Shown: positions 18,886 through 56,600 of the stretch, piece after piece | Position numbering within the stretch: the first letter of the stretch is position 1 | Layout: the number at the start of each line of letters is the position of its first letter | From: Bolinopsis microptera | Taxonomy: Eukaryota; Ctenophora; Tentaculata; Lobata; Bolinopsidae | Assembly (NCBI RefSeq): GCF_026151205.1 | Contig: NC_087073.1 | Span: 5,293,001 to 5,357,000, forward strand | Length of the DNA stretch: 64,000 bases | Reading direction: 5' to 3' | Translations under genes and position numbers: made by a program | The notes under the pieces: generated by a model | The model's input: only the letters and a program-made list of their open reading frames with translations | Told to the model about the DNA's origin: nothing | The model's database searches: none

Positions 18886-21800
18886 CTATGGTATTGATGA
18901 TGATTCAGAGTTCTCTATGAAAAAAGGAGAATCAATGGCTGAAATACCAACAGCTACTCCACCTTCGTTCTCCGTAGCACCCTTAGTTCGAATAAGTGGT
19001 CCGACAACTTTATTCTCTACCACTTTGCTGGAATCGTTAGTACAGTACACTGAGTAATATCCAAACTGAAATAATACCAAATCATTATTTAACCGTTTAT
19101 ACAAAGCTCGCTACCGCAGAAGCTTAGAGGCCCAAATATATATACCATCCTAATTGTTCTATAAGTATAAACATGTGCTCCTAAAAACTGGTGATAATAT
19201 GGACTTGTTTTAATTCTGAATGAAAAGCTTGAATTCGGGATCAAAAGCGGAATAATGACTAAAAATAACAAAACCAACCTCGGAAACAGTATCCAGCTCC
19301 TCGGACATGACTCCTCGTCGCACAAACTTATTCTTTAATACTGGCGGCGTTATCTTTCTCATCAGGATGAACTGTGCTCTAGCAGGATCCTCTGCGAGGG
19401 ATATTAGCTTCTCCTTCATTTCCTGGTCCCAGAGATTATTTCCTCCTCCTTCTCGTTGTGGTTTTAATACATATTGGTCCAAGTGATCTATACCTGTAAA
19501 ACAAGTGCTCGTAATTTCAGCGGTGAAATAAGCTGTTACCAAATCTGTAGATAGATAACCTGCGTTCCAGAAAGTAGTGCAGCCCGCGCTGAACAAATAA
19601 ATAATACATTTTTCGTAAAATCAAATATCAATGAGATAGGTAAGTCACTAAGTGAAAATATACCTAATTGAGCATTTTTATCTCCCTCCTCGTCCAAGTT
19701 CAGGGGGAGAGTGTCACAGAACAAACGAAGAATATCCTCAGTGGCCTCGGGAGAAGAAGTGTACTTTTGTAGAATATTCCTTTGAGATAACAACATCTGG
19801 AACAGCTTCATGTTCACTACCTGATGTCTGACACAGGGTACCTGGGTGTATACGGTTCTGTCAAATGAAAGTTATCCCCCCTAAATCCTATAACTTTAAA
19901 TTTGATCAGCTGAAGAGTCTAGAAAGTAGTGAGCTCACGGTTACAGCAGTGCTGAACTCCATGTCCCGTCTCGCTCTCCAGAAGTCAGGAGTCTTGAAGT
20001 GAGCTGGATCGTACATTGTCCGAAAGTACAGAACAGCTACCTCCATCTCATCTACAAAGTACCGACCATCTACCACGGTACCGTTATCTACTAGGTACTG
20101 TGCAGTGAACCGTATTGTAGGGACTCCTGATGTTTCTAAAGCGTTAAGTATCAGCTGAAAGGAGGACGGAATTTAGTCTGATACTTTCAATATAATACAG
20201 AACAGTTTAACCTTCGATGAAATGAAATGAAATAATGTGCTTGTATACCGCCCATATGGTTAGCAACTGACACAGGTGCCAGGTACTAACCATGTCAGAG
20301 CGGTTCTAAAGGGTGAGGTGAAAATATCCAGCAACAAACAACTAAATCATCTCAAAAACAAATCTATTTAGGAAAAATTAAAACTTTAATTATATCATAT
20401 AGTAATCATAGGAAGATTTATTGATATATACCACACTATCGATTAACAATAAACCACCAGAAAACTCTTCAAAAGTAACATAATATACTTAAAGGAATCA
20501 AAAGAAGGATTATTAATATGTTAATACACATTGCACTAATAAATAAAGATACACCCTACAACAAATCATAAGAACAAAGAAAAAACAGCACTAATCACAT
20601 ACGGTCATATAAATAATGTTTAAGGGTACCTTTGAAACTGTCTACGTTGCGTAGTGATCGTATCTCCCAGGGAAGTGAGTTCCAAGCAGTTGGTGCGTAG
20701 TTGGTGAATCGACGTTGATCAATCTTACTATTTGTAGTTTTAGGAGTCTTTAGTCTGTAACAATCTCCTTCTACTTTTGATCTTGTACTAGCTATTGTCA
20801 ATGGGTTTTCAATCACTACAAGATTCTGTATGTAGGCCGGTGCAATCCCATGCACAGCTTTATAAGTTAACAGGCAGACTTTAAAGAAAATCCTTTGGTC
20901 AAGAGGAAGGATATGTGCTCTCTTGTAGTAGGGAAGTAGGTCTTCTGATCGGTCTTTGATATTGTAGATGAACCGTATGGCACCATTGAGGGTTGATCTT
21001 AGCTTGTTTAGTCGTGTCTTTGGTAAATTCATGTAAAGAGAATTACAGTAGTCGAGCTTTGATATTACAAGCTGTGTTACCATCATGAGTTTCACTCCTT
21101 CATCCAGATAGCGCCCAATCGTCCTTAGATTCATCATTGTCCAGCTGCATTTCTGTTTGACACTATTAATTTGTCTTTCCATGGTAAGAGACTTATCAAA
21201 CTTTACCCCAAGACTCTTCCAGCTGTCACCTTTACATTCAGTTGGAGTGATAGTTGTGTTTCCGAACTGAATCGTCACCTCCATTTTGCAGTCTTTAAGA
21301 ACTTTTGATTTGCCTAGGACAAGTAGTTCTGTCTTCGACTCATTGAGTTTCATAAAGTTTCCAACCATCCAATGCTTGATTTCCGAGAGACATCTATTTA
21401 TCCGATCTTTGACATCTGCAAGTTCGCTTGGGAAGCTTGGATGAAAAGATATGTATAACTGAGAGTCATCCGCATATAGCTGGATGTCTAGTCCAAATTT
21501 GGCAGCAATATTCTGAAGGTCTTTAATGTAGAGTATAAACAAGATGGGCCCTAGTAGGGATCCTTGAGGGACTCCAAAGAGGAGTTCAAGAAGAGACGAG
21601 ATAGTATCGCCAATCTTTACACAGAAATATCTGCTCTCAAGGTATGATCTCATCCATTGAAGGGCTTTCCCAGTTACACCATAATGCTTGAAAAGTTTCT
21701 CAAGGAGGATTTCGTGATCAATGGTGTCGAAAGCTGCACTGAGATCCAGGAGTACCACAGCCACGATGTTACCTGCTTGAATCTCCTTGTTTATGTCGTC

Positions 21801-24800
21801 AGTCATCCTGACAAGAAGGGTCTCACAGCTGTGCTGTGGGCGGTATCCAGACTGGACAGGGCAGTGAAGGTTGTTTGTGTCCAGATGGTCATTCAACTGG
21901 TTCAGTACAATTCTTTCCAGGAGCTTGGATATAGCAGAAAGGTTCGATACTGGTCTATAGTTACTTAAACTGTCAACATCAGCGTTCTCTTTCTTAAGGG
22001 TTGGCTTAATAACCGCTTTCTTCATTTGAGAAGGAAATGATCCTGTCTCAGTAGACGTGTTTAGGATGTGCAGGAGTACAGGTGTTAGCTCATCCACACA
22101 GCTCTTCAGTAGGAATGAAGGAATGGGATCCAGACAGCAGAACTTGTTACTCATCATTTTAACCAGTTTTCTGAGGTCTTCAGCACTGATAGGGGAAAAC
22201 GTGTGAAGAGTTGAAACATAATCAGGTTCACTTGAAAGAGCAAGTGTTTCCTCCGGGACATTTTTGGATGCATCCAATTCAATGTCTTTCCGTATTTTGT
22301 TAACTTTCTCAGCAAAGAAGTCTTTGAAATCCTCTGACAGTTTTACAGGGTCTTGATGTTTTGGGAGATCCTGTGTCTCGTTACCAAGAAGTCTGTTAAG
22401 CTTCTTGTAAAGGGCCTTTGAGTCTCCTGATGATGCTCGAAGCGACTCTTTGTTATAAGAACATCTCTTCACAAACTCTAAACTAACAAATCTATCTCTG
22501 AGATCTATGTAGTCTTTCCTGGTACCCTTTCCTTTGCGCCATGCACGTTCGGCTGCTCTCCTCTTTTGACGTAGCAAACTAAGGTCTAAGTCAAGCCACG
22601 GCATGGGTTTCTTCCGAAATTTCTTCTTTATAACAGGACAGTGCTTATCCATGAGTTGAGTAAGGACGGAGTTATACAGTGAAGTCGCTTCTTCAACAGT
22701 TAAAATTGGATCAATAGTTGACAGGTTGGAATTCCTTAGATCATCCTTAAAAATTTCAATGTCTATGGATTTGAAATTTCTGTAGCTCAGAAATTTGCCA
22801 TTATCATTCTTACTAAGTCGAGTGTCAACATCGAAGAGTACTAGAAAATGGTCTGAGGAAGTTCTTGACTGAACAATGTTAAAATTGCTGATCTTGCTCT
22901 CAAGAGACTGGGTAGAGATCACTAGGTCCAGGGTACCGCCCTGATTATGAGTTGGGACTATTGGAACATGTTGTCGGAGGTTGTACTGAGCTAGCAAGTC
23001 CAGAAACTTCTTTGGATAGTGTTCATCGGGTCTTTCAACATGAAAATTGAAATCCCCAGTCAAGAGAGGGTTTCCTGGCTTTGCACACAGTATTTTAAGG
23101 TATTCTTCAAACTCCTTTAGGAAGTCACATTCTGTGTACCTTGCTTTCTTTGTGTAGGGGGGTCGGTAGATGTTTACTAGTCTCAGCAACTCTGATTCAG
23201 CACTCAGAAGTGATTCCATCACTTGAAATGACTTAAACTTGGTCACTTTGGTATTAGGCTTCAGTTCAATCGAACTTCTGTAAACCATTGCTATACCACC
23301 TCCACTGCGGTGTTTTCTAGGATCAGAAAGTATGCTCCAGCCACTATCTTTTATCTCAGTGAGTTTTGCTTTGTCGCCATCTCGAAGAAATGTTTCTTGC
23401 ATAAAACAAATGTCACAGTCTGTTTCCCACAAATGTTCTAAAACACCAACAGTCTTGTTTAAAAGAGATCGGACATTGAAAGTTCCACATCTCAACTTCT
23501 TCCTAGTCTCATCTTTTGGTCCTTGACCCTCTGGCGATAGGCGTTTTTTATCTGCTCCGTGCATCCTGCAGTTCTAGACATGACTCGTTCTTTTTCTCTT
23601 ATAAAGAATGGACAAAGATTATCAGCAGCTTTATGCGTCTTTGCAGCATTTTTCTCTGTGGCACTTTTACTATTAAAGCAGTTAGAACACTTTATCCGAT
23701 CAGTCCTATTTTTTATCCTGTTTTCACAGTCTTTAGAAGTATGTGCTCCAGCACAGTAGAAACATGTGGGAGAGGCATCTTTTAGCTTGCAGTACTGTGA
23801 CTTTGCCATATGGCCAAATTGCTGGCAGTGGTAACATTGTACTACATGGAGTCGGTCATATACACGATGTCTTTGTAGGCCCAGGTATATATAGTCACCA
23901 CATTTTCTGATGACTTCTCTAGCCTCTATGGGCAGTTGAATGACAGCAAATTTTTCTTTGATATCATAGTAGACTACTTTGACATTAGCATCCTTCATAC
24001 CTGTGTTCTTTTCCAATAGTTCATCAAGGATCTTTTCTTTGCTGTCAGAATCAAGGTGAATGTCGATATTGTTAGTTTGGGATCTAACTTCTTTGGTTCT
24101 ACTGACTTTGAATTGACTTTAACTGACTTACACTTTTGTGTCAGCGCTCTTTCCGCTTCTTTCATGTCATCTTCAGTAGTAAAACTCAGCACTGTTGTAC
24201 CATTACTTACCCGTTCATCTTTAACTCGGACACCTTTAAGAGAGTTCTTCACGTCCTTACGATAAACTTCGGTCCATTCATGGTTAGTGATAGTAGTCTC
24301 TGTATCATCCTCGTTCACTGGTGACTTGGCTATAGTAATCGTGTGCCTTGCTGGCAGGGGCTTCTCTATTGGAAGGTTAGCTTGCAGGGATTCCGCAGGG
24401 GAAATGGCAGCCACTGAAATAGCTTCTTTCAGAAGATTAGGTAGGACTTCACTCAATTGTCTCTTGATTATGTTTTCTAGAGTTTGGCTGTCCTGTTCCG
24501 GAAGGGGGACAAGTGAGGTCTTTGCTAGATCAATAGCTCTGGTTGCAATGATGTATAGTTCTTTACAAACCTTGAAAATATGTTCTTTGTTGTTGCTGGT
24601 GGGTATATCTGTTAAAATCTTTGCTTCGTGGATTGTTTTCTTACCTTGAAAGGACTTTTCGTTGATTAGGTCGAGCTCTTCTTCCAGTTTCTTCAAGTCA
24701 TCCATATCTGCTAATGAAATCAAGGTCCTATACCCAAGATAAGCTGTAAGTTTTTAGAAAAACTTAAACAGCTACAGTAACGTAGATCTGGGTGTGTATG

Positions 24801-27800
24801 ATAACAACTTAACAATAGAAACCTCAAATTATTTGTTATATAGTAGTGTTGAAAGTATTAAAACGATTGAAACTTATTTCAAGAACTGCGTATGTGTCTA
24901 GAAATCAATAAAAAATCAATTTGCATTTTAACAGTCTGTGGTAAAGTTCATTGATGAATGTCTGAATTTAGACGACACCTACTTGTTGGTCGAAGTAGTT
25001 GAATTGTGGACCATCATCATCTACCATTACAAGGACACACCTCCCTCCACACTTATATTTAGTGTTGTATAGTTGGTAACCTGTCCGCAAACCTTCACTG
25101 TATCCTAATCACGTGATGCATTAATAAATCAGTCATGTTGGACTCAATTTTAAAAGTAAGAAATTCCTTAAAGCGACCTACACAAATGTTTCTGTTTTTT
25201 TAACTCAAGGAGATGAACTTGAAGTCAAATTTGATTATTACGAGTACTCGTTACACGAACCTCTTATAGTGTTGACTTTGTTGTTGAAATGTGATGTGTC
25301 AACGTTAAGTTTATTTAACAAACTCCTGTGATAGTGATAAACCCCTTCGGTTAAAGGACCAAGACTGGATGCTATTAAGTTATATTCAACCTGAAAAAAG
25401 GTTCGTTTCATCTTTAAAAACAACCGTGATAAAAAATCTTCGCTATAAGTTAGGATTTCTACGAAGAAAAAATATTGCAGTGCAAATGTAGCGTATGATA
25501 ATCGATTTTGTATATAGAGGATTCTATATATAGACCTAAACAAACGAATCCCTTTCCACAGATTCTGTCTGAAGAAATCGTAATTAGAAGCAGTCGGATT
25601 AATTGGAAACGCACCAACTTGAATTGTCCGTTAAGATAAGCTTCCTCTGATGTAGGATCTGGAGTTGCGTACATAAAGTCATGTCTGTTGAGGGATAGGA
25701 TAATCTTGTCTTGGTGTGATTCTGGTAATTCTTTGTAAATTTCCAGCAATCCTGAGGGATGGAAATGGTTTTACTTGTTTGTAATTGAAAAGAGTTGACC
25801 GTATTGACGGTGTTGACGATGGGAGTATTTTATGCATAAAATATATACGCATCTATATTATTTTGTCGACCGAAAACGAAATGAAACTGCTGTACTTTTG
25901 GAAACAGAGTAAACAAAGAAAATTTACACAAAATAGTGCAAAATTGGATAAAATAGCTATTTCTGTTTCCTTTTTGCCAATTACTCAAAAAGTAAGCGTT
26001 TAAATATATAAGTTTTGTATATCATAATCATAATCGTTCATCAAAATCATTTTAAAAATAAAGAACCCCGATGGGCACTTCTGAAAACATAACTTCTAGA
26101 AAAAAAATCAAGATTAAAAATGAAGTAAACTGTGATAAATCACAACAAATGAAATCGATGGTATATCAATTTTGAAAGTTGCACAGTAAATTATAAGGAA
26201 AGTTTTATAAGGAAAGGTTTTTCACATCACACTTTTAATTAGTTTTTTACACTGTGTGAATAATTAAAATTATAAACACAGCTTTGTTTTGGTTAGATTA
26301 GAGTGAAATAAAAACTAAATTGTAGACATAAGATAAACTGACAAATAAATAATATATTGTATTCTTTAGATGTCCAGATTCCAGAAACTTACCAGTTAAA
26401 TGTTCCCTACTAGCCCTAACACCCCTGTTCCATGCCCAATGAACGATGAACGAGGATGTGCACGAGGATACGATTTCCATAAATTCGTCGAATACCTTAG
26501 TGCAAGAAATATAGGCGGCAAGAAATTAAGGCGATTCTGACAAAATCGCCTTAATTTCTTGCCGCCTTAATATCTGACCACCGTAATTTCTAACCGCCTT
26601 AATTTTTTTTCTTGCGATTTTTTCATAAGAAATTTTCGTGTGATTTTATTATTTTAAATTTACATGTCGATTTCGTTATTTGCTAGAATTCAATGAAATA
26701 CATATTTAAAATAAATTAACTTGAGTCTAAATACATTAATATATCAATTAATATTCTCGTCTTCTCCTTCTTCATCAGAGTCATATATCTCCAGCAGCTG
26801 CAATCCATAACCAAGATAGTCGTCGTCATCTTGCTCCGTCGTGTCTGGAAATAGCTTCTTGATAATATCAGCTGATTCATCCTCCAAACGTTTGTCGAAG
26901 CTGTACTTTTCGTCGACTAACTTCTTGAGGAGCGTTATTCCCTTCTCATTGGTCCATGAAGCAGTTACAGAGCACTTCACTTCTAAGCCGCCCTGTGTAA
27001 GAGGAGAACGTGCAGGTTTCTCCTCCAGGACTTTTACTTTGTAGGAGCAGCCATGACCAATCGAAAAGTAGACAATTCGTGATATTTCAATTGGCACATG
27101 TCCTACAGTTATCGGTACTAGCTTGTGCGGAAATTTCGCTTTCACTGCGACTGCAAAAGAATCGTAGGGATTATTATCTTCCTTCTCGAATGATAAAGTA
27201 TCGTCTTTAGATGGTTTTGTCCAATCCTTTTGATAAAAGTGATACCCTCTCACCCCCATGACAAATGATGTCTCTGGTATGTCAATTGTCACTGTAGTAG
27301 TACACATTGTTATACCTTTATACAACAGCGAGGTGGGAGTGTGTGTGTAGAAGAGAGCGTGGAACTGGACCGAAATAGAAAGCTGAGTGACCTCTTGACT
27401 TGAAGTTACGATTTGATTAACTTTTTAAACTACCTCTTGTGGTCTTGTGGGATGTGGGTGCAAGTGAGCAATGCGCGTGAAATTTATCATACACACGGTA
27501 ACTGATCGCATTCTTACATCTGAGCAAATCTATGAGCCGGCCGTGACAACTGCAGCCTGGCGCTCCTGCAGTCCTGACTCCTGCGAGTGACGTCACTTCA
27601 CTCTGCCTCCTGCCAGTGCAGCAGTGCCGACCCACTTTCGCACAGTTTCAGTGTTTCATGATTACATTCGAGTGATGAATTGTGCCATTTGCTTGCATTT
27701 GCTTAAGTACTCAATTTGCTTAAGTACTCATTTGCTTAAGTACTCAATTTAGCTTAATTTATGCTTAATTAGGTACTATAATATTTGCCTTTCGTCTTTG

Positions 27801-30800
27801 AGCATTTACTCGATGCAAAACATACATTGTTTTAGGAATTTCCGCACAAGCTTATACCGATTGTCAATTATAGAGTGTAGACTTGTAGAGTTGTAGGTCA
27901 TGCACAATCGAAATATTGCAAATTGTGTGGTCATGGCTGCTCATAATAAGTACATAGGTATTAAGTAGGGGGGGGGGGGGGGGCTACAACAAGCGGTGTT
28001 AGCTGGTACCGCTTAACTTGGCACTTTTTTTTTTCGTTAGCGATCCGCTAAACCGCTAGAAAATACCGCTAAACTGCTTAAAATAATGTTTTGTTTGGGA
28101 GATTTTTTGTTAGTGGTCCGCTAAACCGCTAAAATTGACCACTACACCGCTTGTTGCAGTCCCTCCAGTATTTTGGTGCCCTTTTCTGTTCGATATATTG
28201 CTTCGCATCATTAATTACAATTGTCCTTCTGCTGTCTAAATTATGGTGAAATATATAATAGTGGCTCCCTATCTCCCTGTTGTGTAATGTGTATCTACTT
28301 TCTGGACTATTACATGCGCTGTATGAGCTTTATAGTTTGTGATTGTGCCAATGGTCGTAGTTATAACAAGTTTGGGGAGTTACACGGATATCATAATTAG
28401 TCACACGGATATCATTAGGTAGAGTACCAACTGATAAATGATACCTAAGTCATCAAGACAAATTCACAATAAGAGAATAAGACTTGTGATTCCTTAATGC
28501 TCATCAACTGTGAACTTTTCGCCACTAGTTTTACTTTTAACATTTCACTTGAACAGGTATGTCGGTCAGGAATCTCTTAGGTTACTACATGCGGGATAAG
28601 GATGTGGGTGCCGAATCACTAACCGTCGCAAATATCCCAGTTCACAGTTTGCCAACTCCTAGCACGTCGGGCTTGAGTCAGAGCCAGCTGGATAGCGTAG
28701 CTGATTGTCTTAGCATTTCCAAAGCCAAAACCAAAAAACGTGCAACATACACACCGAAGGAGAAGGCGACCATCGCCCGCTATGCTACTTCTAACAGGAT
28801 CGTGGATACAGTTACTCATTTCAAGCCCCAATTTGCTCATCTTACCGAAAATTCAGTGAGGAGGTGGAAACGAGAGTACAGCAAAATCTCGGGAGCAGAT
28901 GGATCAGCTCCTGAAGCATTGCTTGTGGGGAAACGCGGGAGGCCTACATCGTTGCCGGCTGAATTGGATGCTGATTTGAGAAGACTCTTGGTAACCATGA
29001 GAGAGGCTGGAGGTGTGGTCAATTCGACAACAATACGTGGATGTCTCATGGGATTGGTGAACGCTAACCTAACAAAGTACGGCACTTTCTTGAAGTTCGA
29101 GGTAACACACTCCTGGCTGACATCATTGTACACCCGGATGAAGTTCTCTCAGAGAAAAGCTACGACGTCTAGGCCACCTGTTAGCAGCGGAGCATATGAA
29201 GAAACCAAGTAACGGTATCATTTCGCTCTTCAGAAGGTTGTTGACGAGTACGACATTCCCGAGGAGCTGATTATCACCCTGGACCAAACTCCAACAAAGT
29301 TTTTTAACCTGAGCAACTCCACCATGAGTAAGAGGGGAGAAAGCCGTACTGCTGTGGCTCACTGTGGCGACAAGAGAACAATCACAGCTACTCTCGCGGT
29401 CACACTGTCAGGAGACATCTTACCCTACCAACTAATTTACAAAGGAACAACTAAAAGGTGCTTACCTTCTGCAGATCTACTTCCCGCAGGTTTCCTTCTC
29501 TCTTACAACAAAACGCACTGGTCGAACACTGAAGAAACTTTGAATATCCTAAATAATGTTATCAAGCCTTACGTTGATCAGAAGAAGAAATCCCTCGGAA
29601 AACCTGACAGTCAGAAAGTGGTAGTTATTTGGGACGATTTTAGTGCTCATAATGCACCACGAGTTTTGAGTCTGCTTTCAATGCTTGGAATCTGTACCGT
29701 CGACATACCGAAAAATTTGACTCATCTCTTGTCACCACTAGATCTCACAGTGAATAAAAAGCTAAAAGATTTTGAGCGGGAGGCATGTGCATCCTACGTA
29801 AGTCGTAGTCTAGCAGATCACATCCAGCATAATCCTGAAGTAGGAGATTTCAAGTTGGATATCCGCTTGTCAGTGCTGAAACCTCTCCATGCCAAAACTT
29901 TGACAGCTTCCTACGAGTTCTTCAAAACTGTGGAAGGAAAGAAGTTGATCGCTTCTGGATGGCGTGCGTCTGGTCTCACTGAAGCGGTGAGGAGGTGCAA
30001 GGAGGACGGTATTGACTCAAGAATGCTGATTGATCCATTTGCAGCGCTCAGGATCTAACTTCATGTTTTTTATCTCGGCTTCTCGGACTATATTCTATTG
30101 AGATTTAAACTGCAGTACATGTGTTATTAATGTCAGTTCAAATTCGAATGTTCGTACAATTTTACATTTCATTTTTAAGCTTTAAATCGAGTTTTAATTT
30201 TAAAAAGAAATAATTTTTAATTTTAATGATGATATGTAGTATACATACATAAAAATTCCTTGCCGCGTACAGAATGTGCACTATCATTTTGTCAAATGCA
30301 ATGAATATACCAATTGACTTGCAGTTTGCTGATGTAGTGGATGTCTACCTAATTTAAAATTATAAACTTAGACGACAGAACAGCAATCACTATAAATATA
30401 ATGTGCATGCACCATTTAGTTTTTATGTGACCAATGTCCAATATATCGTATTTTTAAACAGATTTCTATGCTTTATAGACTGATAAAAGAATAAAATTGA
30501 CACTATTTCGACCAAAACTATAACCAAATTTGCGATCAAAAATCGTATTTTTTCCGAAAAAAATATCGCCTTAATTTCTTGCCGCCTTAATTTCTAGCGC
30601 CTTATATTCTTGCCGCCTATATTTCTTGCACTAAGGTATTGCCTCCAAATCCTCGCGCAAATACCCATCCTCGCGAGGGTAAATCATCATCGTGCACAAT
30701 TTCCCACGAGGATGATTTCCTCGCGATGAAATTTTTGGACATTTCCATCCTCTCGAGGGTATCGGGAGGGTTTTCTCCTCATCGCACGATGATGAAATTC

Positions 30801-39456: not shown

Positions 39457-42400
39457 TCACTTAGCGACGAAAACCTTTGGTTTAACATATATTGATTTAG
39501 TTAGTTTGTTAGTAAGTGCAGAGGTTTCAATATCAGGATGCCGCAACAGCTTTATAACCGGTTGAGGCATTGATAAAAGTCCAGATTTCAGGGGCACAAG
39601 TTGATACTGTAAATAAACCTTGTCATTGGGTAGTATCTTACATCTCAAATGCTTGTGTCCAGCAAACATAAACAAATCCCCAGGCTCAGCCACAATGTCA
39701 ATCTCCTGCACATAGTTACTGATATTAACAACACACAGCCTGATTGAGATGGGATCGAACAGAGTTCCAAAAGAGGGCAGTGTATTAGTTAGAAATACAG
39801 GTAAACTGTTCACGGAGACGATGGGAAGTGGCCAGCTTGTTGTTGTGAAGGTTTGAACTGAGTCGTTCCGCCGCCATGTTACACTAACCGACCCTATATT
39901 CGTGTTTTTGCTGGGAGACTTAGGCTGTATTGTAATACAGTCCGTCAGGACATTGTGTTTTGTCAACGAAAACTGCTTTTCGTTTGGTGCTTCGTCGAAA
40001 ATAAATTCTGGGTTTATATCATATTTGATGTCCTTGATTTCGATACAGCTATCATGAGAAGCGCTGAGCTCGTTAAAGATAAGACACCGATCACAGGTTA
40101 GTAGAGTCTCCATTGGGTCACACCTGGATGACATCAGAGAAATAGAACTGTGAAATGGGGCAACACTTGAAAGTACTAGATCATTCCTTGACTCGCACAA
40201 ATACGTCTTGTTGTTGAGAGCTATAGAGTATGATAACACGTACGACAGGTCGAATTTAGCTTCACTGTTACAGCGAATAATAAAGGAAGTGTCAGAAGAT
40301 TCTTGAGGATCTAGGCAGTCTAGACGAAAATCGAGCTTATTCTCAAAAGAGTTGTTGTTAGGCTTGCAAATCTCAGCCGCATAAGTAGCAGACTTTACTT
40401 GAACACAAAACATAACATTGGAGATCCTGCAATCTTCATTATTTGACAAGTTAACTGTAAGCTGTTGAAATTCTCCCACCAGAACGGGAGATTTAAAGGC
40501 AAGTGAGGTGGTAGCACGTGCCACACGTGGCACTATCTTGCACTTAGCAACTGGGAATACATCCCCAAACTGCAACACTATCGAGTTTTCTCCCGCAATG
40601 TAAAGTTTTATAGAGAATATTTTCAACACGCAGGCAGCATCGTTACTGAAGGGCTCCATCTCAAAAGAAAGAGTAACGGGAGCATCAGCTGACAACTCGA
40701 TCACCTCCTCTCGGATTGCTAACTCATCGTACTTCTTATTGTCAAAACACACAACCACTTTGCTGAAACTCATCGGCAGCACGGCAGTACTGATAAACTG
40801 AACCTTAAAATGGATCATCTCGTCAACTTGGAAGCTGTTAGTGGCGAAGGAGGCTGAGCAGGAGAGGAAGGAGGAGAGTTTGGTCATTTCCACCACATAC
40901 TCCTGTCTTCCTGCTAGCGTCTTGCTCCAAAGTTGTCGAGTACTCTCATCTCCCTCCCTCATGTCCGGTACTTTACCCTCTAATATACCCAGCAGATTAT
41001 TCTGCAGGTCAGCCTTGTCGTCAACATGTTTCAACATGTTGATACCTATCAACTCACAGCAGATAGCGACGTAATCCAGCACATTTCCCACTAAGTAAGC
41101 ACACTTTAAACACAAATCCAGGACTGAAGTAAGCAGACTCCACCACCTTTCTCTCCGATACTCGCCCAGAACGCACATTGCAATCGAGAAAGCCTTCTCG
41201 TAATCTCCTGCTAGGTAATACTCATTTCCCATCTCCAACATGAGATGGCGCTTCATTCTTGTTGGTTTGTACTGTTTGAACTGTCCCACGGCTTTGTTGA
41301 GAAGCGGGATGATTATTCGGGAATAGTCAATGTCGAGTTCCAGTTGCTGGATGGTAAAGAGACAATCGTCAGCATCTAGATTACCATTGGTCATGGCACC
41401 ATTGTAATGTTCCAACTCCCAAGGAAACTGCCCAAAGTATTTGGTAACTGGGAGTTGAATAACCTGTTTACCCTCGGCTACAAGAGCTGCTACCTCACTC
41501 TTGAAGAGGTCGGATAATTGTCGCCGTTGTATGGTGTACTGAGCAGCTTGAAGGTAGTAGAACCCCGGGTGTTTGGTCTGCAGAGCAGTCAGACCAGCAG
41601 AGATGGCATCGTTGAAGAGATCTCCAAAGAACTGAAACTGATGACTCAGCCACTGTCTGTGTTGAAACTGAAGCTCGGGGGGCTCGGTGTGCTCTTTGAA
41701 CTGTTTGATGTGCCGATCAAACTGTGCTATAGCATCCAGCGGGGCACCTGTTCTAAAACTCAGCTGGCATATCTTAAAGTTGATAAAACCACAGAGAATC
41801 TTTATTTGGTGCTTGTTAGAAACCTTGGTCTCAAGAAGTTGAGAATAAGTCATGTTGTAGTGCTTGAGAGCGGTTGGTATATCTTTCCTTATCTCGTGAA
41901 AGAAGCTCACTTTGATGAGATGACGAGCTTGAAGCAGCTGATAGTTAGGACGGTTTAACGTATCTTTGTTGTTCTTTATTCTCTTAGTTTCGTTAAGGTA
42001 GTACATGACTGCCTGGTCAATAAACACGTTCTGTAGCCGTATCACATAACCAACGAGATGATCAGCATGAAGTACGGGCAGAACAAAAAGAGAATTACTC
42101 ATCAGCTCGCAAGCATTACACAGACTAGTCGCACGTTCCACCGCAAGGGCATCCTCACCAGCGGGCAGCGAATTCTTCTGGATAAGCACAACAGCTAACT
42201 TAGTAGCTCTGTTACCCAGACCTGATCTCAGATAGTTGAGCTGGAGTCCACAGTCCAGCTGCTTCTCTGCCCAGTGCGAGTCGTTCCAGTCCAGCTCGTA
42301 AAACAGGATCACAGCAGCAGGAATGAGGTTGAGATGTTTGTTAAACCATCCTCTCTGTAGAATACCTGCTGGTGGTGGCTTGTTGGTCCCCTCGTTCCGT

Positions 42401-42585
42401 TTGGGGAACATGTTGTAGTCCTTTACAAGCATGTACCGGCCAGGACCGTTGTCCGAGTGCATGTTGGTGGAGAAAGCATCCCATATTGAGGAATGTAGAG
42501 GATTCTTGAGGTTCAGTCCAGCTAGACCAATATTAGGGTACAGAGGACTGAGGAGCTCATCAGGCAACCCTACGTCAACTTTCAT
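39457..42585 (-). CDS. TRAPPC11: TRAPPC11 (foie gras homologue), TRAPP III subunit
   Basis: TRAPPC11 is a large subunit of the metazoan TRAPP III tethering complex, acting at the ER-Golgi interface, in autophagy and in N-glycosylation. The 1042-residue ORF has the family layout (human 1133). N-terminal markers are GWFNKHLNLIPAAVILFYELDW, TKLAVVLIQKN, ERATSLCNACELM and LFVLPVLHADHLVGYVIRL. The foie gras domain at about 210-520 includes LDAIAQFDRHI, HPGFYYLQAAQY, and RWWSLLTSVLDLCLKCAYL. The C-terminal half is beta-rich (Gryzun-like). The ORF is intronless, unlike the intron-rich genes around it. The start is supported by human homology beginning just after it. Complete, no breaks. Confidence 0.95.
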   Translation of the reverse strand: MKVDVGLPDELLSPLYPNIGLAGLNLKNPLHSSIWDAFSTNMHSDNGPGRYMLVKDYNMFPKRNEGTNKPPPAGILQRGWFNKHLNLIPAAVILFYELDWNDSHWAEKQLDCGLQLNYLRSGLGNRATKLAVVLIQKNSLPAGEDALAVERATSLCNACELMSNSLFVLPVLHADHLVGYVIRLQNVFIDQAVMYYLNETKRIKNNKDTLNRPNYQLLQARHLIKVSFFHEIRKDIPTALKHYNMTYSQLLETKVSNKHQIKILCGFINFKICQLSFRTGAPLDAIAQFDRHIKQFKEHTEPPELQFQHRQWLSHQFQFFGDLFNDAISAGLTALQTKHPGFYYLQAAQYTIQRRQLSDLFKSEVAALVAEGKQVIQLPVTKYFGQFPWELEHYNGAMTNGNLDADDCLFTIQQLELDIDYSRIIIPLLNKAVGQFKQYKPTRMKRHLMLEMGNEYYLAGDYEKAFSIAMCVLGEYRRERWWSLLTSVLDLCLKCAYLVGNVLDYVAICCELIGINMLKHVDDKADLQNNLLGILEGKVPDMREGDESTRQLWSKTLAGRQEYVVEMTKLSSFLSCSASFATNSFQVDEMIHFKVQFISTAVLPMSFSKVVVCFDNKKYDELAIREEVIELSADAPVTLSFEMEPFSNDAACVLKIFSIKLYIAGENSIVLQFGDVFPVAKCKIVPRVARATTSLAFKSPVLVGEFQQLTVNLSNNEDCRISNVMFCVQVKSATYAAEICKPNNNSFENKLDFRLDCLDPQESSDTSFIIRCNSEAKFDLSYVLSYSIALNNKTYLCESRNDLVLSSVAPFHSSISLMSSRCDPMETLLTCDRCLIFNELSASHDSCIEIKDIKYDINPEFIFDEAPNEKQFSLTKHNVLTDCITIQPKSPSKNTNIGSVSVTWRRNDSVQTFTTTSWPLPIVSVNSLPVFLTNTLPSFGTLFDPISIRLCVVNISNYVQEIDIVAEPGDLFMFAGHKHLRCKILPNDKVYLQYQLVPLKSGLLSMPQPVIKLLRHPDIETSALTNKLTKSIYVKPKVFVAK

Positions 42586-43933
42586 ATCTCATCTCACTGC
42601 AAATATTGGTTATCGTTAGACCTATCAACTATTTCTTTGGCATGACCACTAGTGGGCCTGTGGGATTTAAATGTATTTTGTTTTGGCACATGGTATGGAT
42701 ATGATTAACAGCAGCAAACATTGACACGTGCCAAAACAAAATTATATCTCATCCCCACCATTAGTCGAGTATGCGAGCAATTATATCACAAATTATATCA
42801 GATCATTGAATTTCTTAATTGTGTATCTAGATCACGTCTCTCTGTAATTTTAAGAGTTAATTTGCTCAATTTTAACTCATTAGTAAAATCTACATGAGTT
42901 TGTATCACAATAGAAATTAAAAAGCGAAATTAGGGTCGATCTCACATTTTAATCTACATTTATATTCAAGACTTTATTCTTATACAATTAAATAAATCAA
43001 AACGTAATTAAATGGAACCTATTCAGGGCTTTTAAAAATCAGATGCTGACGCATTCCGGTGCAGTGGCCCCAATAATTTAAAGATAACAAAAAGGAATAA
43101 GGTTCAGTTGTTACATGTTCATAATGGTGTTATTGAAATTCAATATCGTTTGCCTAAACATATTTTTCCTCTTAACACAGCTAGCCAAATCATATTGATA
43201 AGGCTTTTGAGTACATTCTCAAGCGATTTTCATGAAGAAAAGTATAATGTGACAAAGCAATGCCTTACAAAGCCTTGCCTTTACCTCGGCTGCGAAAGCT
43301 TGACACGAAGAGCTCGAAATAGCGATAAATAACAAATTCGATATTTACAGGCTGTAACGTAATCATCTACAGCTTCATGAATAGTGCACTACCTGTGGCC
43401 AAACTGGCCATTCTTAAGAAATTGAAATGAATGAACTATGTTTCGAACTTTAAAATATTGATGATCTAAAACAACCTGAAAACTCTTTGTATCAATGATC
43501 AGAAGTTTACAGCACATGCACAAATAACGGCAGCAAAATATTAATACTGGTTAATGTTTAGTGTCTGTTCAAAATTAGCAAGAATTTTTACAAGGCAAAA
43601 CACTATTAATAATATAAAATTTCCCATCATTTACCCTTTCAATCTGAATTCGATTCAATCAAAAAGTGATCAGGAAAATTAAGCTCAGCTGTTAGCAAAA
43701 CACATTCTTCGTCAAATATCTTATTTCAAATTATATTATTACTTCAATCGAATAAATTTGAATTTCCACAACTTACACACGATTCTTTTTAAACATGATA
43801 TACTTGTCAGAATATTCTACTCTCATGCATTCCGTATCATAGCAAATAACTAACATTACTTCGACTTAAAAAATTATTTTCTAACATCCCAAAAACAGGT
43901 TTAGTGTTATAATCTGAAATTTCGCTCTGGCTT
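42586..43933. other. Intergenic between TRAPPC11 and BET1
   Basis: No gene supported. Near 42670-42750 the phrase ttttgttttggcaca at 42677 recurs inverted (tgccaaaacaaaa at 42728-42740), forming a small hairpin in the TRAPPC11 upstream region. Confidence 0.45.
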
Positions 43934-49022: not shown

Positions 49023-51178
49023 TGCAACACTTCTCCCGGCGTCAATAATATGCCGAGAAAAAAGCGGCGCACAAGTGCGCGGCTGCCGGCTTCCCATGTA
49101 TAGTGAAATGACCGTGGGGGTCACGACGTGATACAAAGTTTTACCAGGCGCCCTTATTTGATCCTATGCACGGTGCTTTTTCCGCATTTTATAAAAAGTT
49201 CAACTGAGTTGTAGACTGTAGAGGTCAAATGCAAATTCTTCAGTACATGTAAATGTGTGAACACATGTAAATGTGTGAACACCACTTAAAACTTAATTAG
49301 CCACCCGATACAGAGAATATCGCAATTTCGATCAATACAAGTAAATCATTATCAGAGACCAATCTGGAAAAAAAGTATTGTATGTGTGTGTTATTATTAT
49401 TTAAGTAATTGAGTTGTAGGTTTATAATCTACGAGGACGCGCGCCGAGTTGGACTCGTCGACGGTCCTATTTAATATTTGATACAAATATTTTACGAGTA
49501 TTATATAACCCGTTAATAATTGAGGTGATTCATAATCCAATATTGGTGATTGTCTAGCTATAAGCTAGGTTGAAACCCTCACAAATGAATAAACCATTAA
49601 CCAATACATTAGATTGAATTTAATAAAAAACGGTAGAAAATTATTTTAAAACTAGGGTAGAAAATAAAATCCTTTGTAATATATAAAACGGTCAACTAAA
49701 AATGACATTTCATTTGTGATTCACAATTCATAAATTTACACGTCCAATTGAAATTCTGTAACCTCCAATTGAAATTCTGTAGCCGCTTCGGCGGGGCGCG
49801 CTTCGCGCGCGAAAAGTGGCATGCAACGTATGTCAATTGATTACCATTACAAGATTTTAATCTATTCAGCAAGGTTTTTTTCCAATTTAAAGATCCGTCA
49901 CAGATTTAATTTATCCATTATTCGGTCGACTAGACCGCAGGAGATTGCAAAGTACTTGGCACACCCTTTGAGATTGATGGTACAGGGCGGTCAAGAAAAG
50001 GCCCTTGAGTGACTTTAGTTAATAACTATCCTCAAATTTGACTTCATAACTCGAAACCTCTCAAATCATTTACTATGATTCTACAGAATCTGTGTTTAAA
50101 ATCCAAGGCTTAACTCTACCCAGAATACGTTCATTTGGCCCATTCACTTTTTGCCAAAATTGGTTCTTATTGGATTTATGAAAAAGGTTATGAAACTGCT
50201 GCTGATCTGAGCCCATTTCATTCGTAAATTTGAGTACATTGTGAAGAATCTGAAACCAAAGCGATTCCCACAATTTCAAGGCTCTAACTCAGGACCTACG
50301 ATGATCACCCTATCAGCAGCTACAGCATCTCAGCTGCATGGCAACCAGTTAGTAACTCTGTTAGAGCCCACAATAAAATGCTTATTACACGAATCTTGTG
50401 ACGTTTTTAACCAAACGAGATGGTGATCCAAGCTCAGCATCACACGATCTTCACTTTGGTATCAGAACAATAAAGCATAAAAAATGATTGAAATGTCAGA
50501 AAAGTTGTGAAAAAGCGTCTCGAGCCTGCCACACCTACTCAAATGAAATTATTTCACCGAGTCCCTGTACTAATTAAAATTAAATTCCATTCTAAAACTG
50601 TCCTTGAGTTAGATTGAACACTTAACTTTGGGGCCTTAAATGCCTTTGTTGCCCGACACCCTGTTCAGTGGTGCAACATTGCATGTTGACGCCCCCCTCC
50701 CTCGAAAAAGCACCCCTTTTAAAGTAGATACGTAAAATTGGACAAATTAGGACTGGACGCACAGTTTTGCTAATGTTCTAGTTAAGTTTTTCAAATTTTT
50801 CCCACATTCAAATGACTATTTGTCACCCCCTAAGGTGCCCCCCCCCCCCCCCCGTGAAGCAGAGTCAGTGAGGTCCTTTGTTACGCCACTGACCCTGTTC
50901 AAGCAGGTGAGGGTGATAATTTTCTGAGGGTGATCAACTGAGTAAATATTTTACAAAGGGTAATGGTTTGAATTGTATAATGTTTGTAACTGTACCTGCA
51001 ATATAAAGTCGATAGAAAAGTGTTCATTTAAGTAAAAATGTGTTTGGATTTCGTAATTTGTATGGTTATTTCTATTATTATTGTTAATAACTGTTAACTT
51101 TATAATTCAACATCAATAAAAATTGAGGCCACTTATTAGGCCATAAATTAGATGAAAATGTTTTAGAAAAAATTAATA
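49023..51178. other. Repeat-rich intergenic region before the JAK copies
   Basis: It contains an inverted partial copy of the GC-rich hairpin unit (about 49066-49135). At about 49407-49475 a piece resembles 16240-16460 (gtaggttta, ctacgagga, gttggactcgtcgac). A strong hairpin-rich GC island is at 49787-49835 (ggggcgcgcttcgcgcgcg), and a C-run near 50840. No exon is supported. Confidence 0.5.
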
Positions 51179-53223
51179 TTGATTCATTCACAGAGCATGG
51201 TCAACTGTCATGCAGTTTCTGTGAAGTTACATGGTGGAAAGACTCTGACATTTCCAGATGACAAACCAGTGCTTGAAATTTTAAAAGCCTGCGCCTCATC
51301 TTTGGATATATCAGCTCATTACATTACCCGCTTTACGATCCAAACAGAAAATGGTCTTCTCCTGCCTTACAGAAAGGGCATACCGAATAATGCTGACACA
51401 TTGACCTTATTCGCTTTTGATGATTTACCTCTTGATGAAATGCTGCATAACAATGTGCCATGTTTTATGTACTACTTCAATCAATGTAAAAATCAGTTCT
51501 TGAATGGAGATCATGTTACATGTGATGTGAATAATGAAACAAGCATGTTGCTGCACAGGGAACTATTTCTTGTGTTCCTCAGAATAAATGGGCTGTCTTT
51601 GAAGCGTCCTGAAGTTGGGAAGACCTTAAGAAAGTACATTTCTATTTTCAAAATAAATCTTGCTGACGAGAAAAGTTTCCTTGTGAATGTCACAAATGCT
51701 ATCACTGAACTGGAAAAATGTTCTGTAAAGCAACACATGCTGAACTTTATTGAAAACTACAGATTGCACGCTCTTCTTGGAATGAAAAGATACACCAAAT
51801 TTGTTGGCATTGAAGTTGCTTTTGAAATGCAGCCTATATTTCTTAGTGAAGTGCTTATCAGTGAAAAATCAGTTCAGATTTTATCACCTTCCAAAACATT
51901 AAAACTTCAAGATATCTCTGCAGTTTCCTCTCATCACTCGTTGAAGGTTGACCTTTCTATGGCTGATGGGAGTCACTGCATTCTTCATTTGCCATCTTTT
52001 GTTTCGTTTGAAACATTTCTCACTGTTCTTGATCATTATGTTCGACTTCAAAATCGGGACACATCATGTCCATTGTCCTCAATAGTTGAAATTCCTACAG
52101 AATTTTGTGTGAATGATACTGAGAATCAGTTTGAATGGCTAAAAGAGCCCATTGTTCCATTTGAAGATATATCATCCAAAGAAGTTAAATTGGCCCTTGA
52201 AATTTATGGCAAGTCTTCTGGCTTATATGGTTTGATTAAAAATGACCATCTGTTCAAATCAAGTAAAGGTACAATATACATTCTCATATACTGTGTAGAA
52301 AATACTGTTTGCGAAAAGATAATATGCTGCAAAGAGGAAATGTATCATTTTGAAAACTCTCCACATTTGCGGTACACATCCATACCTGCTCTTATTCGTC
52401 TCTGCAGATTGGGTCTTGCATCATCTCCTTGTAAGACATATTTGCTGACCAAGCAAATTAATGACTCACTATTGTCAGACATTCAATATCCAGAGGTTAG
52501 AGACATTATTATTTCTCAATCAGACCTGTCAGCTCTCTACCTAGCACAGGAGACTTGGTTGGCTACCATTTACAGGGGCAAGCTTACTACTAAGCAACGC
52601 ATGATCACACATTTTGCTTACAATAGCATGCTCATTTCTGACGAAGCCAGAAAGCTATTTTTTCTGAAGCTAGTGTCCTAGCTAAAGTGGAGAGTGAAAA
52701 TGTTCTACAAATTCTACATCTTTGTGTGTCTCTTGATGCTACAGCAACTAAATACATTACAGAAGACATACCCTTTTATACACTCCATGAACATTTGAAG
52801 ACAGAGTACATTCCCACATATGCACGTCTTGACATGAATATCAGAATAAGTGAAGACTGCACGGAAGGTCCAATGGCATTTACATTGCTCTTTAAATATG
52901 TCAGGGACATAGTTGCAGGATTAAAATTTCTTCACAACCACAATATTGTCCACACTCTTCCTGCACCCCAGCATATACTGTTGGACCAAGTCAGCAACAA
53001 ACTGAAGCTTTTTGATGCAGGGTTTTTTGGAAAACTCTTCACATCATCATCACATCCAAGGCATATCATTCAGCAGTCCGAGAGCTTTGAAGTATCAGTT
53101 TTACGATGGATGTCAGAGACTAGCATATTTAAGTCTGAAGCTCTTAACTCGACTTATCAAGACAGGTACCCATATGCCATTTTCTCAAAAATAACTGTTG
53201 ATATAATATATAGAGAACAGTAA
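51179..53223 (+). pseudogene. Truncated, frameshifted JAK copy (FERM-SH2-pseudokinase)
   Basis: A first frame of 500 codons (51179-52681) covers a FERM-like region, a degenerate SH2 and the start of a pseudokinase. At about 52648-52660 one base appears lost: the first frame runs into a stop, while the next frame carries on in kinase text (IFSEASVLAKVESENVLQILHLCVSL, HNIVHTLPAPQHILL, LKLFDAGFFGKL) until 53223. It has no HRD (HTLPAPQ) and DAG replaces DFG, as in JAK JH2 domains. It ends close to where exon 1 of the downstream JAK ends (YAIFSKITVDI versus PAFSVSID), and the splice donor there is not conserved. No tyrosine kinase exons follow before the next copy. Best read as a tandem duplicate of JAK exon 1 that has decayed. 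A sequencing error at the frameshift is the alternative. Confidence 0.8.
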
Positions 53224-53625
53224 TGTAAAAATACAGAGAAATCATAGCCGGTAGAATTTTCTTTCATCAATAATTGTGGGCACGATAAATTGGCCAGTTG
53301 CCTCTAAATGTCATAAGTCAGGTATTTTGAACCTTAAAATACTGTTAGCAGGAGGAAGGGAAGCTGGAAAGGGGGAGGGCAGCAGCGGGGGCTAGGCATG
53401 ATCACACAATTATGATATTATACTAATGATAAATGAAAACGTTAAGGCAAAGACTAGGGCAATAGTGATATTGAAATATTAGTGGATTATATTGTAATTC
53501 AGGCTTTGATAATGAACTACGGTTCACAACATTCTTCTAATAATAATCATTCTGTAGCAGTATGATATGGAAAGGATGACATTGCTGGAAGACATAACCT
53601 GGACGCCTCATGATATGAATCACAT

Positions 53626-56600
53626 ATGACTTCGTTGCAGCAGTGTAAATTCATCAAACTATTTCCTGATGAGAAAATCAAGATTACCGAAGGATCTTCT
53701 GTTTACAGTCTCATGCAAGCATGTGCAAAGCAGATAGAAATTTTACCAGAGTCCTTCAATCTTTTTAGGATTGTTCAGAAGAGATCAATTTTGCTCCCTT
53801 ATAGAAAAAAGCTTCCAAACTGCAGTAAAAGTAACTGTCCTTTAACATTCAGAGTTATCGATTTCAATTTTGATCTAGAAGGATCATGTTTCAAAGATGT
53901 TTCCCTTTTGAACTACCTTTATCATCAAATTGTGTTCGATCTATTCTGCGATCCCAGTGCAGTTGATTGCAATTCATCCATCTTGGAAGTGCTCGCTGCA
54001 GATATTTCAAAAATTTTCCATCAATTAAGCTGTCAGAACTTAAAAGAAGCATATGATCTTTACTTTGAACTTTACGAGTCAAGATTGCCTCTGAAAAACC
54101 GTTTTTCTTTTGAGAAGTTTCAGAATAGTTGCAGCAAAATAAACACTTCCTCAGAATTTTCATGCTTAGTTCACATTGTAACTGTTTATGTCAAGGAGAT
54201 TTACTCCGATCTGGATGTTATGAAAAGGACCTACAACGCCAAAATGTCTAATAAACCTTCTGGTGTGAAGGGAAAATCATTAGAAAAGAAGTTTATTTTA
54301 GAAGTTTCTTCAAAATATGTTAAAGCTAAGTCAGATGATAAACAACATGAAGATATCTTCTTCTTAAAGCAGGATAAACAATCCTCTGAAAACAGTGCCC
54401 ACAACAAGATACTACAACGTATCAGTTTTCAAGAAAAAACTTCAGTCTCTCTTGTCTACAAAATGGGCACTCAGTGTGACCACGCACCTGTTGTCGTGTC
54501 TTTCAAAAGCACCAAAGAACTGGAAGCGTTTGTGTCCCTTGTTGATTACTACTTCTATTCAGTGTATCCTTATAAATTCTTGATATATAAGTTTCATGAC
54601 ATCAAAATTGATGAAAACTCCGTTCAGCATATACCAGACACAAGTTTTAATCTTATCAACCGTGATCCTCATGTGTCACATTTCATGGATCTGGAGGATG
54701 CTAAAAATGGTCTACAGAAGGTCCTTAAACATACCGGCTCATATACCATTGTCAAACCATCAAAAAACAATTCTTTCCTTCTTCTCTACACTATCCAAGA
54801 CAAAATTACTCCAAAACAAATATTTCGCCGTGATGGGTTGTATCGAATTGTTGGCAATGAAGCATGCCATTCAAGAACTATCAAAGCATTTGTGGCAATT
54901 CTTAAACCTACAGTCGACGGCCGGAGGGTGAACTTGGACAAGCATATGTCAGACTCTGTACTGATTGATGTTCTCACGTTTGGTCACTTTCGTGCAAATA
55001 TTCCACCAATGCTTGTCAGCATCAAACACCCATACATTCACTGCTCTTACACCCACAAAACTTACGAGGGAAGCTTTGAAGACCTCAGTGGACATGAAAC
55101 AAAATGCAAAGTGATAGAATTCTCAGAACTCGTAGACAGAAGGTGGTTTACTGAGCTCTACACTTCCCTTCTCCAAGTCACCAAAGATAGCATCGTCAAA
55201 TACATTGGATTCTGCAAACTTGGCAAAACACCAAGAGTATATGCTTTTGTCAATTATGATGCCATGATTTACCTGGACAAGTTTCTTGAAGAGTCGCCTC
55301 CCGCCCCCTATATCTCTCTCTCTATCATCCAGCAGATTGCGTCTGCTCTTGAGAAACTTCACAGCTTCAAAATAGAGCACAGCTGTCCGGCACCTCATCA
55401 CATTCTAATTGATACCTTATCCTGTCAGTCAGCTTACGAAACCCCTCAATTCGGCATCAACATTAAACTCACTGATGTTGGATTGTCTAAAATGATGTTT
55501 CTGAAGGAACCGTCGAAGAACCCTTTTTGTATCAAAAACCCTTTCTGCACAAAAGATGGACAGTTTGAGCTGAGATGGCTACCTGAAAGCTTCTTGATGC
55601 ACCCCTCGCCAGCTTTTAGTGTCTCTATTGATAGGTAAATAATCAGATCCGCCCAGTTGAGATGTGAAACTTGTATTCTCACCCTATTAGTGTAAGGAGT
55701 AATAGTTGTAACACCTTGTCATGTTCCGTCATATAATCAACAGATCTCACGTTTTTAGTGCACTTAGCGATCTAATTAAAATGTAAATGCACAAAAGGTC
55801 TTATCTTGTGGGTGGACAAATCTGACAATTCGAGCCAGTGGGTGGGTGTCTGCAATAACTTGGAAAAAGTATGAAGAAAGTAAGATATTAGAAATCTTAG
55901 TAATTGCCAGGTGGGGTGAGAATACAATTTATCTCACTCACAAGGGTGTGGTACCACACTCACAAGGGTGTGGTACCACACTCATAAGGGTGTGGTAATA
56001 TGATCCTTAATGTTCATATTAATTTTGTTGGCTACGATTTCTCTGTATTCTTAACAAGAATACCTGCACTGATTTGTTGTGTTGTATACAACTTAACATA
56101 TATCTATTAGTACCGTAATACGGTGTTGTATTACTTCTCTCTGCCTGTGTCCATATATAATACTCATATAATATTAACTATATAATAGTCTACCTATAAT
56201 AATTACTGTTTGAATCTATCAAATCAAGTTACATTATGAGAAAAACATAGATATTAAATATCTTTGTATCATGCAAATAAGAGAAAAGGTTTTACTAGTA
56301 ATAATAAATAAAATAAATTTAATAAATAATAGTTTTGTCGAATAAACACGTGACTATATTTTCCAGGTGGGTGTTTGGAATTACGGTGTGGCAAATATTC
56401 AACAACGGTAGCATTCCACTGGGAAAGCATTCCAACGAGGAATTGCTCAACAGATATCTGAAGATCAAAGAACAGCAAAACTGTGGTAACATGGCATCTA
56501 ACATACCGTTCCAAGGATGGTTTCCTCTCAAATTGGACATTCCTAAGCAAGACGATCTGACCGTTAATAAGAAAATACAAAAGCTTGTCAACTACACCAT

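Follow-up and report, generated by a model that had tools for sequence, protein, structure and literature searches.

According to the usual view, a transposase and host repair are all that Tc1/mariner and pogo elements require. The pogo superfamily of IS630-Tc1-mariner (ITm) transposons includes Tigger, Passer, Fot, pogoR, Lemi and Mover. Its members are characterized, in the available part of the survey, by a TA (or TAA/TAAA) target-site duplication, type 1 terminal inverted repeats (TIRs) of up to 40 bp, a length of 1.2–5.2 kb, and a DDE_1 domain (PMC7386202). The transposase of Drosophila pogo has been found as an interactor of PCNA (PMC5371812). The HIRAN domain of HLTF binds single-stranded DNA ends with a 3'-OH (PMC11237066), and a dinucleotide is held between Y72 and Y93 (PMC4666394). 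On its own, the domain antagonizes HLTF and, in vitro, inhibits resection of Cas9-generated ends; this inhibition is weaker once N90-N91 are mutated (PMC11237066). Here, we describe a transposon with its own stand-alone HIRAN gene in a 64,000-bp stretch of the genome of the ctenophore Bolinopsis microptera (contig NC_087073.1, positions 5,293,001 to 5,357,000, or C2:5293001-5357000; hereafter, the window). We compared it with related elements of this one genome (264.65-Mb assembly, 232 contigs). Overall, we suggest that a clade of pogo-like transposons has an ancient accessory in the HIRAN protein, one that is under selection, acts in trans and most likely binds DNA ends or forks; we put the probability of this reading at about 0.5.

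Structure and copies of the window element

The element occupies positions 26495–30636 of the window (4,142 bp), exactly the interval where the original prediction had placed a pogo-like transposon with TA-flanked inverted ends. Its 39-bp inverted ends are 94.9% identical (left TIR, 26495–26533, plus strand, common to 23 paired copies; right TIR, 30598–30636), and the TA target-site duplication lies outside both (26493–26494 and 30637–30638). The left terminus begins CCTTAGTGCAAG at 26495 and the inverse of CCTTAGTGCAAG terminates at 30636. A subterminal array of AAGAAATTAAGGCG-like sites with ∼16 bp spacing is found at the left end (26504–26608; two plus-strand and four minus-strand sites), where sites in opposite orientations build a 55-bp palindrome (26513–26567). 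The right array (30567–30636) consists of four sites 15–16 bp apart and is continuous with the right TIR.

The prediction of a DD35D transposase and an intact divergent stand-alone HIRAN gene inside the same ends agrees with Pfam matches and codon positions. The HIRAN gene (26744–27307, minus strand) is intact and encodes 187 amino acids with an acidic C-terminal tail. The transposase gene (28559–30058, plus strand), which encodes 499 amino acids in sister copies, is broken in the window copy by an in-frame TAA (29210–29212, plus strand). DDE_1 (PF03184) matches the second part of the transposase (35.5 bits), and the DD35D triad is encoded at 29282, 29633, and 29741 (Asp codons). Between the two genes, part of the HIRAN coding sequence is repeated in decayed form and in the opposite orientation to the gene (27837–27952, plus strand; 25 bp at 92% identity and 73 aligned columns at 68%). 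This fragment could be a rearrangement relic or could be able to pair with the HIRAN transcript. Judged by its TA target, CCTTA ends, and DD35D triad, the element is best described as a young cut-and-paste transposon that has two genes and belongs to a pogo-like clade, where 'pogo-like' is assigned by target site, TIR, length, and DDE_1 and not by transposase phylogeny.

The original prediction proposed a search with the termini for full copies, and such a search revealed further ones. A 25-base terminus (up to 2 mismatches) matched the genome 48 times, versus 0 for a reversed control pattern; these matches form 23 paired copies and 2 lone ends. Four paired copies are full length (4,128–4,671 bp). 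All four contain both genes, are at least 99.5% identical over aligned parts, and are flanked by TA at different sites. Such identity, together with the 23 paired copies, points to a recent spread of the family. The longest copy (locus L007 on contig C9) has a ∼530-bp internal insertion near its left end, at the equivalent of window position 26605.

The remaining 19 paired copies are internal-deletion derivatives of 557–1,501 bp. Breakpoints are all different in the 14 that were read, and the junctions have 0–6 bp of overlap or 1–14 inserted bp, a variety that would be expected from interrupted gap repair. Three of the 19 derivatives keep HIRAN at whole length (in one case with a small deletion that preserves the frame), and none keeps a whole transposase gene; the five unread derivatives (557–811 bp) are too short for either. 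HIRAN is dispensable in cis. Since most derivatives lack it, the HIRAN protein, if it acts, acts in trans.

HIRAN and transposase genes in related families

With the window element taken as family A, four further families (B–E) were found in the fetched regions, each with HIRAN and transposase genes between ends of the TA/CCTTA type (TA outside, CCTTA as the element end) at both sides. The CCTTA end is common to all families. Transposases are 28–51% identical between families and HIRANs 26–52%. Family B has one full copy of 6.8 kb with an inserted long interspersed nuclear element, family C one copy of 3.5 kb, family D three copies of 3.3 kb, and family E one copy of 4.1 kb (L040:1850-5953). 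A GTAAGT...CAG stretch, a predicted spliceosomal intron, splits the family C transposase (L048:2375-2593). Protein searches of the genome gave at least 149 matches for the window HIRAN (best 150 of 289 candidates scored), at least 120 for the family E HIRAN (best 150 of 283 candidates scored), and at least 87 for the window transposase (86 of 442 candidates scored).

Among the copies found, all 10 whose transposase is complete or nearly so have an open HIRAN frame (A four, B one, C one, D three, E one); these are the copies among the scored transposase candidates, and the total may be higher. The transposase is open in six of them (three of A, the C copy after the predicted intron, one of D, and one of E). 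The intact HIRAN gene beside a stopped transposase had been read as a hint of separate selection. However, three of the four full A copies have an open 499-codon transposase frame, and the TAA is a private single-base change of the window copy, so it gives no evidence of such selection. The imbalance across the ten copies, four broken transposases versus no broken HIRANs, is not significant either (0.73^4, ∼0.28, hand calculation from gene length).

The original prediction had asked whether the two genes always occur together. They do in the copies found with a transposase that is complete or nearly so, but derivatives do lose HIRAN. The only HIRAN-less copies recognized, which the original prediction had named as possible counter-evidence, are derivatives that also miss all or part of the transposase. 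Three of the three E derivatives fetched (L042–L044) retain some transposase sequence (up to ∼70%) and have no HIRAN match. Ten of the 11 paired B copies are not full; eight overlap a transposase piece and two a HIRAN piece. Of the latter two, L019 retains the whole HIRAN frame; of the eight, one on C12 (3,954 bp, not read) is matched by a C-terminal transposase piece only. Of the six D pairs, three are the full copies, two retain hardly any transposase and a HIRAN that is interrupted, and one has neither gene whole. Termini of family E match the genome 443 times, with one full-length pair among the ∼100 places listed; the contents of a 12-kb E pair on C2 were not read. Family G is known from derivatives: the ends at L079 enclose remnants of both genes, that of the transposase being C-terminal, and L078 holds a similar pair without recognized ends. 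In family F (L038, L051–L070), ∼1-kb non-autonomous elements with HIRAN only have been amplified from one deletion form, and many of the copies still have an open, though truncated, HIRAN frame.

At most of the HIRAN loci whose flanks were read, one or both TA/CCTTA ends are present; L053 and L078 have none, and the ends were not looked for at L041. No free host HIRAN gene was recognized among the loci read (most of the 149 matches are unread), and no relatives were confirmed in viral contigs or in the prokaryote genome set.

Co-inheritance and selection

We compared a tree of the five HIRANs (143 columns) with one of the transposase stretch shared by the five families (189 columns; FastTree, unrooted). 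The two trees agree in their topology, ((A,B),C,(D,E)), with HIRAN and transposase bootstraps of 0.90 and 1.00 for AB and of 0.995 and 0.86 for DE. A match by chance has a probability of 1/15 if all topologies are equally likely. Between families, synonymous divergence of HIRAN is saturated and nonsynonymous divergence is not (A–B, pS 0.81, pN 0.32; D–E, pS 0.93, pN 0.46), hence HIRAN is under purifying selection. The selection on HIRAN that the original prediction had proposed to look for is therefore seen between families but not among HIRAN-only derivatives, for which it was rejected. For family F, the count drew on 20 of the 21 copies fetched (without L051; 3 untrimmed) and gave 48 nonsynonymous and 16 synonymous singletons, with a neutral ratio of 3.36; in the four C' copies there are 13 and 3, with a neutral ratio of 3.58. 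The combination of constraint between families and neutrality of HIRAN-only derivatives indicates that HIRAN is kept together with a transposase and drifts without one. From these comparisons the clade of two-gene transposons is very probably ancient and selected. A single capture by chance, the other possible counter-evidence, was rejected in view of families A–E, the shared topology and the between-family constraint; since the association is old and selected, such a capture is not what the data show.

Features of the HIRAN and transposase proteins

The HIRAN domain (PF08797, cut-off 24.7 bits) was matched with E-value < 0.001 in all five families. Scores exceed the cut-off in the window HIRAN (26.2 bits) and in families B (27.0) and E (26.4), and fall under it in families C (20.9, E-value 3e–4) and D (23.1, E-value 7e–5). 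A profile of the five HIRANs has seven matches in PDB up to an E-value of 10, and the best five are HLTF HIRAN. The motifs RG.H and VGH are invariant among the family HIRANs; NNPYD is exact in family A and nearly so in B, and both have the NN and the Tyr. We compared the HLTF residues N90, N91, and Y93, while Y72 falls outside the aligned part. In place of N90-N91, the C HIRAN has N-D plus an insert and the D and E HIRANs have D-N; all three retain the Asp and the VGH motif. We also considered, and rejected, a SUMO-interacting motif for the HIRAN tails: it is present in three of five tails, and shuffle frequencies for those three are 0.35–0.53.

PF03184 scores over the cut-off in the transposases of families A, D, and E. 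None of the DNA-binding domains CENP-B_N, HTH_Tnp_Tc5, HTH_psq, BrkDBD, and HTH_ABP1_N was found in the transposases of A, D, and E or in exon 1 of C (Pfam, E-values up to 0.5), and a weak HTH_Tnp_1 match in the window transposase (E-value 0.31) is below the cut-off. No strict PCNA-interacting protein (PIP) box occurs in the transposase pieces of the five families. A hydrophobic-x-x-aromatic-aromatic motif opens the transposase N-terminus in all five, and its likeness to N-terminal PIP boxes is our assumption, which we take as a lead only.

Possible function of the HIRAN protein and alternatives

In the explanation that we propose, the transposase would cut the element out and insert it, and the HIRAN protein would work beside it as a trans-acting accessory factor. 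HIRAN would bind 3'-OH strand ends exposed on excision, or at replication forks receiving insertions, and once bound would steer the treatment of those ends by host repair. Cut-and-paste excision in the ITm group leaves 3'-OH ends exposed, which makes an end-binding HIRAN partner plausible. By analogy with HLTF, we consider this end- or fork-binding mechanism to have a chance approaching even, and we infer an interaction with host repair. We are doubtful about a stronger version, in which an animal transposon clade would have a dedicated two-protein system, its private HIRAN capping or guiding 3' ends in competition with the host HLTF/Rad5-type HIRAN, so as either to keep resection away from excised or donor ends or to place insertions at forks.

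Several observations weigh against our reading. In C, D, and E, the HIRANs are missing the Tyr of NN-P-Y-D and have only part of the NN, therefore 3'-OH binding may not be conserved. The HLTF matches of the five-HIRAN profile are weak (E-values 0.048–0.07), and the window HIRAN alone finds no HLTF in PDB up to an E-value of 10, its sole match being avidin (E-value 0.0073). Gene orientation varies: HIRAN is divergent from the transposase in A–D, and the genes are in tandem in E, with HIRAN upstream. The amplified HIRAN-only derivatives look neutral by their singletons, with no selection seen. Finally, as only 86 of the 442 transposase candidates were scored, intact HIRAN-less elements could be missed.

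A different role, which we find possible but unlikely, is that HIRAN binds the subterminal repeats of the element, where it would add a second DNA-binding subunit or else repress or activate transcription of the element. The arrays of ∼16-bp repeats at both ends fit this role, and with no DNA-binding domain detected in the transposases of A, D, E, and C exon 1, another protein could supply end recognition. However, HIRAN is described in the available parts of PMC4666394 and PMC11237066 as a binder of single-stranded 3' ends and not of sequences, and the long transposase N-terminus may hide a helix-turn-helix missed by Pfam, as the weak HTH_Tnp_1 match hints. HIRAN might instead be selected cargo that serves the host or opposes rival elements, by silencing competitors or by altering host repair generally. 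The sheer number of HIRAN-related sequences (at least 149 among the best 150 of 289 candidates) would suit such a cargo, but the TA/CCTTA ends at most HIRAN loci read, with no free host copy recognized there, speak against it, and we judge it improbable. 

We give slightly less credit still to the idea that HIRAN is a passenger without function, carried along since a single capture in the ancestor of the clade. The neutral singleton ratios of HIRAN-only derivatives (48:16 in F and 13:3 in C') and the loss of HIRAN from most derivatives are what a passenger would leave behind. Against this, HIRAN is open in all ten copies with a complete or near-complete transposase, in families whose HIRANs have diverged to 26–52% identity; its nonsynonymous divergence is much lower than the saturated synonymous one; and its loss from transposase-less derivatives is expected of a trans-acting factor. 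Very improbable, to our mind, is an ordinary element whose second open reading frame (ORF) gives a spurious HIRAN match. Modest Pfam scores (20.9–27.0 bits, two of five under the cut-off) and the absence of HLTF from the single-sequence PDB search leave room for it, but HIRAN is matched in every family, HLTF heads the profile search, and RG.H and VGH do not vary.

Neighboring features of the window

A non-LTR (long terminal repeat) retrotransposon lies at 20595–24753 on the minus strand, with a 992-amino-acid reverse transcriptase/endonuclease ORF (RVT_1, Exo_endo_phos) and, by eye, zinc-knuckle-like motifs in the ORFs upstream of it. Several long genes of the window have no introns. One is a single-frame TRAPPC11-like gene of 1,043 amino acids (39457–42588, minus strand; Foie-gras_1, Gryzun). 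Tandem large single-frame ORFs of 504 and 674 amino acids are present at 51167–55638 on the plus strand. The 674-amino-acid ORF has a weak kinase match and the 504-amino-acid ORF no Pfam match; by eye only, the two look like JAK-type genes.

Comparison with known systems

With a clade of transposons whose members have had a repair-type protein of their own for so long, the step at which host repair takes over from the transposase would become open to direct tests. Natural stand-alone HIRANs would be useful for studying how forks reverse and how ends are resected, and some of the orphan HIRAN genes in genomes may turn out to encode transposon proteins. We found no open-access report of HIRAN in a eukaryotic transposon in a search of titles and abstract starts, with subscription papers and Repbase outside its scope, and the word HIRAN is absent from the main text of the pogo survey (PMC7386202).

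The elements share with the pogo superfamily the TA duplication, TIRs of up to 40 bp, DDE_1 and three Asp residues, and families A, C, D, and E are within the 1.2–5.2 kb range. The DD35D triad is that of Passer and most Fot elements, as far as the available part of the survey covers them (PMC7386202). Unlike pogo elements, they have HIRAN as a second gene and a shared CCTTA end, and the five listed DNA-binding motifs are undetected in A, D, E, and C exon 1; the same part of the survey also reports Mover without one (PMC7386202). Drosophila pogo offers a precedent for a pogo-type element that engages a replication factor, PCNA, but the transposases described here contain no strict PIP box. The Tec and TBE elements of ciliates, as described in the available text of PMC7325037, are likewise ITm elements with accessory ORFs, one of them in the complement in Tec. 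The accessory proteins named for them are not HIRAN: Tec has a site-specific recombinase and TBE a zinc finger protein (PMC7325037). Finally, the proteins resemble the HIRAN of HLTF/Rad5 by profile and, in family A, by NNPYD and VGH. In contrast to HLTF/Rad5, they stand alone, with an acidic tail and without a helicase or RING domain, and NN-P-Y is partial in families C–E.

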